Shown here: positions 9,669 to 64,000 of the stretch, in pieces
How the letters are laid out: each line of letters opens with the position of its first letter
Position numbering within the stretch: the first letter of the stretch is position 1
Assembly (NCBI RefSeq): GCF_018128225.1
Contig: NZ_CP072377.1
Span: forward strand, 1-64,000
Reading direction: 5' to 3'
DNA length: 64,000 bases
Source: Leptotrichia sp. oral taxon 218
Lineage (GTDB): Bacteria > Fusobacteriota > Fusobacteriia > Fusobacteriales > Leptotrichiaceae
Made by a program: the position numbers and the translations under genes
Notes under the pieces: generated by a model
Databases searched by the model: none
What the model was told of the DNA's origin: nothing
What the model saw: only the letters and a program-made list of their open reading frames with translations

Positions 9669-10067
9669 TTACACCTCCTTTTGATTTTGAATATATTTTT
9701 TAATTATCTCTAACGGTGCACCTCCAACACTTACAACTAAATAACTTCTACTCCAAAAATATTCTTTCCACAATCTTCCCCTTATTTCAGGAAATTCTTT
9801 TTTTATCAACCTGCTGGAAGCACTTTTATAAGTATTTACAAACTTAGAAAGTTCAGTATTAGGCATAGCATTAATCAACATATGAATATGATCAACATCA
9901 TGTTCCCATTCTTTAAGAACAATGTTATACTTCGGACATATTTTTTTAAAAATCTCTTTCAATCTATTAGAAATTTCATCATCAATGACTTCTCTTCGAT
10001 ATTTTATACAAAAAATCATATGATAATTTATATCAAATACTGAATGATAATTACTATTATATGGCAT
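9669..10067 (-). CDS. tnpA: TnpA, Y1 HUH single-strand transposase (IS200/IS605)
   Basis: This 132-aa transposase has the HUH metal-binding motif His60-Ile-His62 in DHIHMLI and the nucleophilic Tyr125 in YIQNQ. It cuts and joins single-stranded transposon ends at the subterminal hairpins. The length is normal for the family (about 130-155 aa). It is the only tnpA seen in the window, and the IStrons and the small element at 18014 lack one, so it is a candidate trans-acting helper. Confidence 0.93.
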   Translation of the reverse strand: MPYNSNYHSVFDINYHMIFCIKYRREVIDDEISNRLKEIFKKICPKYNIVLKEWEHDVDHIHMLINAMPNTELSKFVNTYKSASSRLIKKEFPEIRGRLWKEYFWSRSYLVVSVGGAPLEIIKKYIQNQKEV

Positions 10068-29419: not shown

Positions 29420-29879
29420 TTATTCTTCAATTGTTGTTCTCAAAATCTCAAAGTTTCCTTCAAGCTGTACTTTTAAATTAACTGGGATTAAAATATTTTC
29501 TCCTTTTTTTAGTTCTAAAAATTCATTTTCATTCCAGAAAATTTTCCCGTTTCCGTCTAAAACAGTATAAATTATCATACTTTCAGAGCAAAAGTCTTCA
29601 TAAGAATTTAAAATTTTTATTTTATCAATTGAATAAAATTTATTTTTTATTATGTTTTTTTCAGTTTCTCCATTTTTAAAATTTGTATTTTTAATTTCCA
29701 CTTTTTTTCCAAAATCAATAACATCAGCGGCATTATCCAAATGCAATTCCCTTTTTTTTCCATCTTTATCGATCCTGTCAAAGTCGTAAATTCTGTAAGT
29801 GATATCAGAACTTTGCTGAATTTCTGCAAAAATGACGCTTCCTTTTAAACTTGCATGAACAGTTCCAGGAGTTATGTCA
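29420..29879 (-). CDS. manA: mannose-6-phosphate isomerase ManA, 3' exon
   Basis: Reading from 29879 on the minus strand in the frame of the upstream exon gives DITPGTVHASLKGSVIFAEI, then QQSSDITYRIYDFDRIDKDG and RELHLDNAADVIDF, which is the second half of a type I ManA. This holds only after removal of the IStron at 29880-31829. An internal Met at 29746 is not a likely start. Joined to 31830-32338 the gene is 969 bp (322 aa), the usual size for the short Firmicutes-type ManA. The enzyme interconverts mannose-6-P and fructose-6-P. Confidence 0.85.
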
Positions 29880-29965
29880 CTGAACCTCCCACGACTAAAG
29901 TCGCAGGGTTCTAAAATCTTTAAAAATATTCAAAAATTTTCTAAGAAGTTTGATAGCTTTATACT
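29880..29965 (-). ncRNA. predicted 3' part of the IStron omega-RNA
   Basis: The 79 bases from the tnpB stop to the element end finish with the hairpin CGACTTTAGTCG within GAACCCTG...GGGAGGTTCAG. TnpB guide RNAs derive from this position. The guide would be the flanking manA exon, starting TGACATAACTCC on the minus strand. The extent into tnpB is unknown. Confidence 0.45.
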
Positions 29966-31206
29966 ACCCTTATTCTTTTAGGCGTGTCCAGCTCACCTCT
30001 ATTGTATAGGATATTTAAATCCACAACTTTACTTTTTCTTAATATATTTAATGCTCCATTACAATCTGCATTTAATTGATAGCCTTTACTTGTTTGATAT
30101 AGTCCTCTTTTTATCCTTTTTCCACTGAATATATATTCTTTTTGATTTTCTTTATCATATATTGGAATCTCATCTCCATCAAAGAAACTTGCTTTTGATG
30201 TATAACTCTCTTCTTGTAGTCTAAATTCTATTCCATATAGTTTACATAGATATATTAATTTATCTCTTAATTTTCCATATGGTATATTCACAAAGTTTTG
30301 ATTATTTATACTTCCTATATTTGATTTTCTTTGAAAATTCTCGTTATATCCTAGAACTAATTTTCCTATATCATTATTAAGACAATAATTTACAATTATT
30401 CTTGCCGCTTTTGAAAGATAATCTTCTATACGATTATTTCTCTTTCTAGCTATTCTTTTTTGTCTTAATGTTGTCCGCTTAATCTTTTGCTTATCTTTAA
30501 TGCTTTGCAATTTTGCATTTGTCTTATTATAGTATTGATTTATTGATTTTAATTTTCTACCATCTATTATGAATGATGCTCCAGTATTTGTAACACAAGT
30601 ACAAAGATTATCTATACCTAAATCAATTCCTAGTGCATTTTCTTTATTTAATTCCCTTTGAACTTCTTCTACCTCATAAGTATATTGAATTTCAAAGTAC
30701 CTAGAATGTTGTTTAGGTATTATTCTAATTTCTTTTATCTTCTTGTCTTTTAATACTGGTGGTAGTTTTATTGCGATTTCCTTATGTGTCTTTCTAAATG
30801 AATTTGAATAAGGAACTATCAGCATATCATCTTTTAATCTAACAAAACCTATAACAAGAGTTGTAAAACCATCTTTAGCAAGATATTTAGGTAATTTTAT
30901 ATCTTTAAAATTATATTGACCATTCTTAGCAAGTTTCAAAAGTCCAAAAAATGATTTGAAACTTCCGTCTACTTCCTTTAGAATTTGTTGAGCCATATTA
31001 GAATTTAATTTTTTATAGTTCTCGCTATTTTTAAGCATTTTATAGTTTTCGTTATAACTTAAATACTTTTTCTTATTAAAATAATACTGTCTAATATTAT
31101 ATATAGCTTCATTAGTTAAGTTCTTGGCTATATGAGATAAATATTTTAAATTCCTAAACTCTTTTTTACTAAGATGTTTTACCTGCTGTTTTAAAGTTAA
31201 ATACAT
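29959..31206 (-). CDS. tnpB: TnpB-family protein of the IStron, no zinc finger
   Basis: This 415-aa protein starts at the ATG at 31206 after RBS AAAGGAGGTG; a GTG 9 bp upstream overlaps the RBS. It is an IS605 OrfB relative with RuvC Asp195 (GIDLGID) and Asp381 (NADCNGALNI). The position of the usual RuvC-II Glu reads LVLGYNEN, with Gly in its place. An alternative Glu pair is present at 332-333 (EESYTSK), a place where some TnpB/Fanzor proteins carry a relocated Glu. There are no CxxC pairs. It is likely RNA-guided, but cleavage activity is uncertain. Confidence 0.85.
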   Translation of the reverse strand: MYLTLKQQVKHLSKKEFRNLKYLSHIAKNLTNEAIYNIRQYYFNKKKYLSYNENYKMLKNSENYKKLNSNMAQQILKEVDGSFKSFFGLLKLAKNGQYNFKDIKLPKYLAKDGFTTLVIGFVRLKDDMLIVPYSNSFRKTHKEIAIKLPPVLKDKKIKEIRIIPKQHSRYFEIQYTYEVEEVQRELNKENALGIDLGIDNLCTCVTNTGASFIIDGRKLKSINQYYNKTNAKLQSIKDKQKIKRTTLRQKRIARKRNNRIEDYLSKAARIIVNYCLNNDIGKLVLGYNENFQRKSNIGSINNQNFVNIPYGKLRDKLIYLCKLYGIEFRLQEESYTSKASFFDGDEIPIYDKENQKEYIFSGKRIKRGLYQTSKGYQLNADCNGALNILRKSKVVDLNILYNRGELDTPKRIRVV

Positions 31207-31829
31207 AGATATCACCTCCTTTTCATCAGAGATATTATACCATGTATTCTACATTTTATCTGTCAAAAAAGTAATATTTTTTATTTATTTTTAAATATTT
31301 TTAAAGTTTTTAAACCCCCACAACAGTGGGAAGTGTCGTTCACATAAGTGCGCTACTACTTATGCAGTTCTCTTGGCATATATACTCCTTAATAAATTAA
31401 GGAGATTAGCCTTGAACTTCTTGTTATCTCTAACAAGCACAGACTATATCTTATCCATATCCTATTTCAAGGACTTAGGCGAAACCACTTCCAATACCTA
31501 TCGCTTGTATTGTACTCCCCTCACGAGGGATAGTCCGTTGAACTTTCCTTTTCAGGCTTAGCTGCTGATTGTCTATTATCATAATGTTTAGGATTTAACC
31601 TTGCATCATCTAGTATATTTTTTCTGCTTTCGCCACCTTCACACTTATACCATATATTATTACCTAGGTATTATGTTGTGGCTATACTAGCTTTAAGAGT
31701 TCCCAGCAATTCAGTTTCTTTGTTGCACGGTTTTGCTCCGTGTCTACATACAAGTTTCCCTATATGCTTACTAAAATTTTCGTACAATTCATCTCATTCC
31801 TTGCGTCGCGAGTGTTCTTGTACTATTTA
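31207..31829 (-). ncRNA. group I intron 5' region of the manA IStron
   Basis: On the minus strand the conserved group I core is readable. The P/Q region is GACAATCAGCAGCTAAGCCTG, the R element GTTCAACGGACTA lies near 31528-31540, and the S element AAGATATAGTC lies near 31441-31451. GACTA and TAGTC form P7. Compared with the second copy (GTTCAACGACTA) the R element has one extra G. A stem near 31650-31680 and the left-end hairpin are also altered, so splicing may be weakened. An internal extended -10 promoter (TGGTATAAT) lies just before tnpB. Confidence 0.82.
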
Positions 31830-32338
31830 ATAAAATCTCCAGTTTTTACCGATCTTTCTTCAAATAAGTCGCTAAAATCATTATTTTTAACTTTTTCTAA
31901 AAATTTTTTCTTTGTGACACCAGGTTTTGTTCCTAAAATCAAAGTGGCGTCATCACTTGCGTAAACAATGTACCAAGACTCGCTTTTTCCAAATTCATTG
32001 TGTTTTTTCATTGCAACTTCATCGCTTGGATGAACTTGGATGGAAAGTCTGTCGTTTACATCCAAAAATTTTATAAGAAGTGGAAATTTATCTGGGTATT
32101 TTTCAAAAACTTTTTTTCCAACCAGTTTATCTTTATATTCAGAATAAATTTCTTTCAAAGTTTTACCTTTTAGTTTTCCATTTAGCGCAATTCCCATTCC
32201 ATTTGGATGAGCAGAAACTTCCCAAGATTCCCCGATATTTTTATCTTTCGGAAGTTCAATATCCAGTTTTTTTTCTAAATTTTTTCCTCCCCAAATTTTT
32301 TCAATAAAAACTTTTTTAAATTTTAACGGATATAGCAT
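31830..32338 (-). CDS. manA: mannose-6-phosphate isomerase ManA, 5' exon
   Basis: Residues 1-169 match type I ManA: KFKKVFIEKIWGGKNLEKKL, SWEVSAHPNG, PLLIKFLDVNDRLSIQVHPS (zinc-binding QVHP) and KSESWYIVYA. Reading on into the IStron gives stop TAG at 31823-31825 after ...TGDFIK. After splicing the sequence becomes ...TGDFIDITPGTVHA, a normal ManA junction containing the conserved PGTVHA. RBS AAGGAGG, promoter TTGTTT-17-TATTAT on the minus strand. Confidence 0.88.
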
Positions 32339-62927: not shown

Positions 62928-63233
62928 ATGAAAAATAATATTGAAGATATGACACTTAAAGAAGTCCAGTATCTGATTAAAAGAATAGAAAAAGGGACTT
63001 TAGATGAAAGCAGAGATAAGGAAGAATCGCAGAAAAAAAAAGAAAATGGACAAAGATTAGTTTTAAAATTAATTGAGGAATTTGGGGAACTGGCTGAAAA
63101 TATTAGAAAAAATACGAGGTTTGATGGACAAAATATAAAGGGGACGATTGAGGAGGAAGTATTTGATGTATTTTATTATATTGTTGCGATTGCGAATTAT
63201 TATGAAATTGATTTTGAAAAAATCTTTTATTAA
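62928..63233 (+). CDS. MazG-like nucleotide pyrophosphohydrolase, 5' exon cut by IStron
   Basis: This 101-codon reading frame has MazG-type metal-binding helices KLIEEFGELAENIRK and EEEVFDVFYYIVAIANYYEID. It reads FEKIFY and then stops at TAA (63231-63233), which is the first codon of the inserted IStron. By analogy with manA, the rest of the gene should lie beyond the element, outside the window, and be joined by splicing. Truncated as it stands. RBS AAAGGGGG. Confidence 0.78.
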   Translation: MKNNIEDMTLKEVQYLIKRIEKGTLDESRDKEESQKKKENGQRLVLKLIEEFGELAENIRKNTRFDGQNIKGTIEEEVFDVFYYIVAIANYYEIDFEKIFY

Positions 63234-63849
63234 ATAGTGCAAGAACACTCACAACTTTAGTCGTGAGATGAATTGCACGAAAATTTTAGTAAGCATATAG
63301 GGAAACTTGTATGTAGATACGGAGCAAAACCGTGCAACAAAGAAACTGAACTGCTGGGAACTCTTAAAGCTGGTATAACCACAACATAATACCTTCGTTC
63401 AAATATGGTATAAGTGTGAAGGTAGCGAAAGCAGAAAAAATATACTAGATGGTGCAAGGTTAAATCCTAAACATTATGATAATAGACAATCAGCAGCTAA
63501 GCCTGAAAAGGAAAGTTCAACGACTATCCCTCGTGAGGGGAGTACAATACAAGCGACTGGTATTGGAAGTGGTTTCGCCTAAGTCCTTGAAACAGGATAT
63601 GGATAAGATATAGTCTGTGCTTGTTAGAGATAACAAGAGGTTCAAGGCTAATCTCCTTAATTTATTAAGGAGTATATATGCCATGAGAACTGCATAAGTA
63701 GTAGCGCACTTATGTGAACGACGCTTCCCACTGTTGTGGGGTTTTAAAAACTTTAAAAATATTTAAAAATAAATAAAAAATATTACTTTTGACAGATAAA
63801 ATGTAGAATACATGGTATAATATCTCTGATAAAAAGGAGGTGATTATAC
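63231..63849 (+). ncRNA. group I intron 5' region of the second IStron
   Basis: The P/Q tract CAATCAGCAGCTAAGCCTG (63487-63505), R at 63515-63526 and S at 63605-63615 are consensus-like for a td-type (IA2-like) intron. An ACCTTC/GAAGGT stem (near 63391-63422) is intact, in contrast to copy 1. GTGAGA at 63263-63268 can pair with the exon end TTTTAT, including a terminal U-G, and would serve as the internal guide in P1. Confidence 0.85.
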
Positions 63850-64000
63850 ATGTATTTAACTTTAAAACAACAGGTAAAACATCTTAGTAAAAAAGAGTTT
63901 AGGAATTTAAAATATTTATCTCATATAGCCAAGAACTTAACTAATGAAGCTATATATAATATTAGACAATACTATTTTAATAAGAAAAAGTATTTAAGTT
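63850..64000 (+). CDS. tnpB: TnpB of the second IStron, N-terminal fragment (window edge)
   Basis: The reading frame from the ATG at 63850 (RBS AAAGGAGGTG) gives MYLTLKQQVKHLSKKEFRNL and onward, identical over the visible 50 codons to the TnpB at 29959-31206. It is truncated by the end of the window, so its catalytic residues cannot be checked. Confidence 0.9.
   Translation, partial: MYLTLKQQVKHLSKKEFRNLKYLSHIAKNLTNEAIYNIRQYYFNKKKYLS

Follow-up and report, generated by a model that had tools for sequence, protein, structure and literature searches.

The manA gene of Leptotrichia sp. oral taxon 218 is interrupted by an element which, by its sequence features, is a group A (IS200/IS605-type) IStron of the same kind as LbISt1. 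The gene lies in the window, that is, in the whole 64,000-nucleotide stretch of DNA that was analysed. Judged from alignments, the boundaries of the element are exact, its site is empty in relatives, and its group I core covaries and contains a guide that pairs with the TTTAT target. We hold, with slightly better than even confidence, that this IStron was inserted in trans, that its sister copies splice, and that the ribozyme of the manA copy is impaired by an extra G in helix P7.

The manA gene lies on the minus strand: its first part runs from 32338 to 31830, an interruption of 1950 bases follows (31829-29880), and the second part extends from 29879 to a stop codon ending at 29420. The two pieces match the catalytic (exon 1) and cupin (exon 2) domains of phosphomannose isomerase, and the last bases of exon 1 are TTTAT, which places a U at the 5′ splice site. 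In two relatives (G005 and G012) the exons adjoin with zero gap (1501-2009 and 2010-2469 of one locus), and both genomes encode a ManA of 322 aa, with no base lost or gained at the junction. Hence, the element coordinates proposed in the initial annotation proved exact to the base, and the in-frame repair to a 322-aa ManA that it had predicted corresponds to the very junction found in these relatives; the U before the element and the G at its end were also recovered, as TTTAT and TTCAG, in all close copies. The boundaries, as aligned, would restore the manA frame if the intron was spliced, while translation of an unspliced mRNA would end with ...GDFIK and a stop after 171 aa. Exon 1 has a single match in its own genome, and 75% identity across its length was found in L. 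hongkongensis. Both exon frames are open, with dN/dS values of 0.06-0.08 against two relatives. The features of the locus are collected in Table 1.

Table 1. Features of the interrupted manA locus (window coordinates)
Feature	Position	Strand	Evidence or partner
Whole IStron, TAAATAG...TTCAG, 1950 bases	29880-31829	(-)	Copy alignment; empty site in relatives
TTTAT, target of the transposon; also the 5′ strand of splice helix P1	31830-31834	(-)	
Internal guide sequence GUAAG, pairs with UUUAU	31767-31771	(-)	
Left-end hairpin region, common to two TnpA-bearing IS elements	31787-31818	(-)	
Core of the group I intron, from guide to P9	31420-31771	(-)	RF00028; covariation
P3, 5′ strand	31713-31718	(-)	Partner 31481-31486
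P7, 5′ strand including extra G (31535-31536)	31530-31536	(-)	Partner 31442-31447
5′ arm of the 9-bp stem that closes the 3′ end of the intron	31326-31334	(-)	Partner 29884-29892
tnpB, 415 aa, intact frame	29962-31206	(-)	PF01385, PF07282, NCBIfam guided_TnpB
Right-end hairpin GAACC...GGTTC	29882-29911	(-)	Presumed TnpA site and guide-RNA scaffold end (role inferred)
manA exon 1	31830-32338	(-)	PF20511; 169 complete codons + AT
manA exon 2 including stop codon	29420-29879	(-)	PF21621

The element was compared with IStrons already in print. In the part of the 2014 survey drawn on here, IStrons are reported only from Firmicutes and Fusobacteria, including LbISt1 in Leptotrichia buccalis, their sites are mostly intragenic, and group A members have the targets TTGAT, ATTAT, or TTTAT, a TCAG end, no target duplication, and an often truncated ORF A (6/7 group A table entries examined) (PMC4227781). 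The manA element has the 5′ group I intron, the target and TCAG end without duplication, the U-G pair in P1, the IS200/IS605-type ORF B, and, within the 6-10 bp range, a 9-bp 3′ inverted-repeat stem. As the survey describes it, LbISt1 resembles the manA element in genus and group, in its similar length (1760 versus 1950 bases), in an ORF B of IS200/IS605 type beside a truncated ORF A, and in having the targets and the TCAG end of group A; it was reported as one copy, versus 28 close copies here (PMC4227781). The likeness is one of description. FnISt1 and FnISt2 of Fusobacterium nucleatum, likened to it in the same descriptive way, share the fusobacterial host and a TnpB-type ORF, and occur in the cited passages in 3-5 and 1-6 copies, respectively; the TTGAT target of FnISt1 is that of the second family described below (PMC1924603, PMC4227781). 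CdISt1 of Clostridioides difficile, also set beside it by description, combines a group IA2 intron with an IS605-type element, a T-rich pentanucleotide target, and a TCAG end, and its splicing has been reported; a variant is cited with two complete transposase-like proteins, while the IStrons of the present genome gave no Y1 TnpA match (PMC4227781, PMC3984707). The initial annotation had called an IStron with TnpB but no TnpA in a fusobacterial housekeeping gene unusual. The literature does not bear this out, because IStrons are described for both Fusobacterium and L. buccalis, and truncation of ORF A is common in group A (PMC4227781, PMC1924603). A later study of Leptotrichia IStrons was not found by title among the open-licence papers searched. 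The kind is already known, and its copy number here is high.

The 2.17-Mb genome holds 34 IStrons, which are 28 close copies (85-100% identity) and 6 copies of a second family (72-74% identity in the intron), besides short matches. By comparison, the survey lists, in the part cited, as many as 24 copies in a strain of C. difficile but 1-6 in strains of other hosts (PMC4227781), and five IStrons are described for F. nucleatum subsp. polymorphum (PMC1924603). All 28 close copies follow TTTAT (27 directly, L055 with one additional T) and end in TTCAG. From seven relatives 33 matches were sampled, each including the element from its first base, with shorter matches left out; 32 of the 33 had both ends, and all 32 of these had the same boundaries as the own-genome copies. 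The TnpB of the manA element had no match in 6 of the 13 genus genomes, one of which, G001, contained a partial intron match. The second family (six copies, L059-L063) follows the target TTGAT, and its guide GUCAG pairs with UUGAU. Short derivatives with IStron ends but no intron core were also present (L064, 320 bases; L065; L067, 312 bases).

The group I identity of the core was examined by Rfam search and by covariation. The manA copy matched RF00028 (Intron_gpI) with 42.4 bits and an E value of 1.7e-9, which is below the Rfam gathering score of 50, while a search of a wider 3.7-kb stretch, with E up to 1, gave no match, and it was the shorter stretch that gave the match to RF00028. Three other copies scored 50.3 and 51.3 (first family) and 65.9 (second family), all above the gathering score, and the deficit of the manA copy may have causes besides its extra G. 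Eleven helices were drawn on the 34 own-genome copies (28 of the first and 6 of the second family). The structure, which was drawn on the manA copy itself and thereby has an advantage over the slid controls, was paired in 99.4% of 1832 cells. Changes on both sides were found at 16 pairs versus 12.0 in shuffles (5 of 500 shuffles reached 16), and double-change cells numbered 108 versus 19.7 (sd 3.7), although these represent few events, because a large share of them falls in the six second-family rows; further pair types were no more numerous than in shuffles (27 versus 27.9). In P3 three of the six pairs were altered on both sides. In the exon-guide helix P1, a U-A pair became G-C exactly where the target TTTAT became TTGAT, and since guide and target change together, the same upstream sequence serves both as the transposon target and as the 5′ splice site of the ribozyme. 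The U-G pair at the 5′ splice site lay within a continuous P1 in 34/34 copies. P7.1 and P7.2 are marks of the IA2 subclass, and both pair, between P7 and P3, in 34/34 rows. The 3′ inverted-repeat stem, which shares bases with the right-end hairpin, was 7-10 bp long in 59 of 65 rows (those with the 5′ arm found by script). P10 pairing was rejected as a conserved feature, as the start of the 3′ exon differs among copies. These data support a group I core, the exon-guide helix included. Hence, the IStron identity initially proposed, a 5′ group I core plus tnpB, is upheld by RF00028, by covariation, and by the TnpB profile matches, and the Intron_gpI match expected on the minus strand was obtained, though under the gathering score.

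The P7 helix of the manA copy differs from that of its sisters. In the alignment of own-genome copies it reads GTTCAACGGACTAT, while the other copies read GTTCAACGACTAT, and the extra G (31535-31536) occurs in the manA copy alone among the 34; the initial annotation did not mention it. A P7 substitution is present in one other own-genome copy, L045. Across 13 genus genomes the extra-G motif occurs once, here, and the normal motif 73 times, in 8 genomes. Among 60 aligned first-family introns the only P7 indel is that of the manA copy, the remaining indels in conserved columns lying elsewhere, and five of the six P7 pairs are invariant across the 34 copies. P7 contains the guanosine site, which in Tetrahymena has a single bulged base, according to the text cited (PMC10020454). 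The manA copy departs from this single-base-bulge form expected of a splicing-competent P7: in a toy fold of shortened P7 strands without the rest of the intron, which has no bearing on catalysis, the extra G lowered the energy from -9.3 to -14.2 kcal/mol and gave a longer helix without a bulge. A paper on guanosine-site mutants of the td intron was not found among the open-licence literature searched. Since P7 could pair without its bulge, the extra G most likely impairs guanosine binding, and ManA would then probably be produced poorly or not at all. The ability of the manA ribozyme to splice is, on this evidence, doubtful, and the copy may no longer splice. Thus, of the claim that splicing repairs manA, the part concerning the boundaries stands, while the part concerning the ribozyme is called into question by a P7 insertion unique among the 34 copies.

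The strongest alternative, which we regard as quite possible, is that the manA copy splices normally and manA is fully repaired, the extra G being a tolerated second bulged base or an assembly error. The absence of decay in the manA exons, with their signal of purifying selection, is consistent with it and counts against an impaired ribozyme, as does the Rfam match, which still has an E value of 1.7e-9; the other core helices, the guide, the 3′ closing stem, and tnpB are intact as well. Because manA has not decayed, the P7 lesion would be recent, tolerated, or a sequencing error, and such an error in the GG pair may have occurred. What argues against normal splicing is that the extra G is unique in the 13 genus genomes and falls within a highly constrained helix.

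The placement of the copies in host genes was analysed by taking 120 codons as the ORF threshold. First-family copies lay in sense open frames in 22 of 28 cases in the own genome and in 31 of 32 in the relatives, and in none in antisense, where "sense frame" is a generous term, as L049, L054, and L057 resemble leaders of a co-oriented gene. Two further own-genome copies are in shorter sense genes (L036, in a YaaA-like gene, and L043), and L031, L048, and L056 are apparently intergenic or in leaders. All six second-family copies were in sense frames, one of them truncated by the end of the examined stretch. Genes matched by NCBIfam models, with the pieces unjoined and some matches partial and below the whole-protein cut-off, include gmk, queA, recJ, sbcC, yggS, and heptose adenylyltransferase in the own genome, and dnaB, uvrB, and ruvB in the relatives. 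The gmk gene, the sole guanylate kinase gene above the family cut-off in the genome, is split within its start codon, between AT and G, by an IStron at L042 3001-4912, which in genome coordinates is G000:C1:449178-451089. Hence, IStrons interrupt several presumably essential genes. Two similar apparent splits between AT and G occur in the relatives G003 and G022, at L119 and L131, with the start codons inferred.

This distribution could also arise if TnpA inserted the elements on the lagging strand and genes were co-oriented with it, with no selection for splicing and no need of it. In own-genome flanks, random TTTAT sites were in sense in 36% of cases over both strands and in 81-82% on the IStron's own strand; the strand bias is real, since TTTAT on that strand is mostly sense already, and the conservative P value for 22/22 sense copies is only 0.010-0.013 (own-strand null). 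Pooling with the relatives gave 53/53 and P of about 3e-5, with the own-genome null used for all and shared sites kept in, and the pooled sites are not fully independent, because in three pairs the site appears to be the same in two species. We nevertheless consider this explanation improbable, given the pooled value, the start-codon split in the only above-cut-off guanylate kinase gene, the split DnaB, RuvB, and UvrB genes of relatives, and the position of both measurable intron-less derivatives (L064 and L067) outside long ORFs. The site pairs apparently occupied in two species are L033/L137, L124/L138, and L132/L136, and they could reflect inheritance or repeated insertion.

The conservation of the family also bears on whether it splices at all. 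Of the 28 close copies in the own genome, 22 have a full-length tnpB of 414-415 codons and 6 a broken or shortened one. A dead IS605-type insertion with a relic intron, a manA pseudogene, and a family that splices nowhere would fit these broken genes and the P7 insertion, and is very improbable in view of 351 of 484 alignment columns at least 95% alike (60 copies, eight genomes), a tnpB dN/dS of 0.16 (190 pairs among 20 genes of 415 codons), and the interruption of presumably essential genes.

Under the reading we prefer, with trans insertion, splicing sisters, and an impaired manA ribozyme, TnpA supplied in trans would have placed the IStron 3′ of TTTAT in manA. A Y1 TnpA search gave no match inside any IStron copy. 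The absence of TnpA from the genome was rejected, as four Y1 TnpA genes occur elsewhere in it. Two of these four sit in TnpA-TnpB elements, L068 and L069, both of which follow TTTAT, have a left hairpin region 94-97% identical to that of the IStron over 32 bases, and have a right-end hairpin, read by eye, which ends in TTCAG and resembles that of the second family. They differ from the IStron in having TnpA, a different TnpB, and no intron that could be seen. Because of the shared target, left hairpin, and right end, these TnpA-bearing elements may move the IStrons in trans. The survey, in the part cited, judged trans mobilization by another IStron unlikely, on the ground that no genome paired truncated copies with an IStron of intact ORF A (PMC4227781). 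Among the 13 genus genomes a close TnpA was found only in the own genome and G012, which are two of the seven genomes with near-complete first-family copies, and G003, with 13 copies sampled, had no close TnpA (best match 39% identical); therefore, this route does not explain all present carriers. An IS200/IS605 TnpA gene of another type, sharing 39% identity with the TnpA of L069, lies in the window at 9681-10043 (-), where a tnpB adjoins it, and also at G000:C1:940002-940364.

Once inserted, the sister copies would splice and thereby be tolerated in housekeeping genes, and TnpB would cut empty sites, so that the element is retained. TnpB reportedly cleaves empty sites and so keeps the element in place, and a 2024 study of guide-RNA conflict in IStrons is said to have found competition for the 3′ end between splicing and the formation of guide RNA. 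In the TnpB of the manA element the RuvC aspartates are present in GIDLG and NADCNGA, the canonical glutamate position reads LGYNENF, and a possible alternative, displaced glutamate is found in QEESYTSKA; such an alternative position is described in the text cited (PMC10711439). The second-family TnpB has the canonical glutamate. The manA-element TnpB is without the zinc-finger cysteines of other types, and a sequence search with it against solved structures gave no match within an E value of 0.001.

More tentatively, and with clearly less than even confidence, we propose that IStrons without TnpA are moved in trans by intron-free IS elements, giving a 34-copy intron complement which includes the gmk start codon, and that the manA copy is losing its ribozyme. 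If so, the gmk start codon would depend on splicing, and the manA copy would show the loss of an intron's ribozyme in progress within a host gene. With 34 IStrons in 2.17 Mb, some of them in presumably essential genes, the genome offers a natural test bed for bacterial dependence on ribozyme splicing; the intron-free IS elements with matching ends are a candidate answer to the question of who mobilizes IStrons, and the P7 variant allows two natural forms of the guanosine site, which differ by a single base, to be compared. The window contains another copy of the manA-type IStron, L034, at 63231-64000 (+), which continues to 65176 in the genome. Its upstream frame, about 101 codons from ATG, runs into a stop exactly at the junction in both the spliced and the unspliced form.
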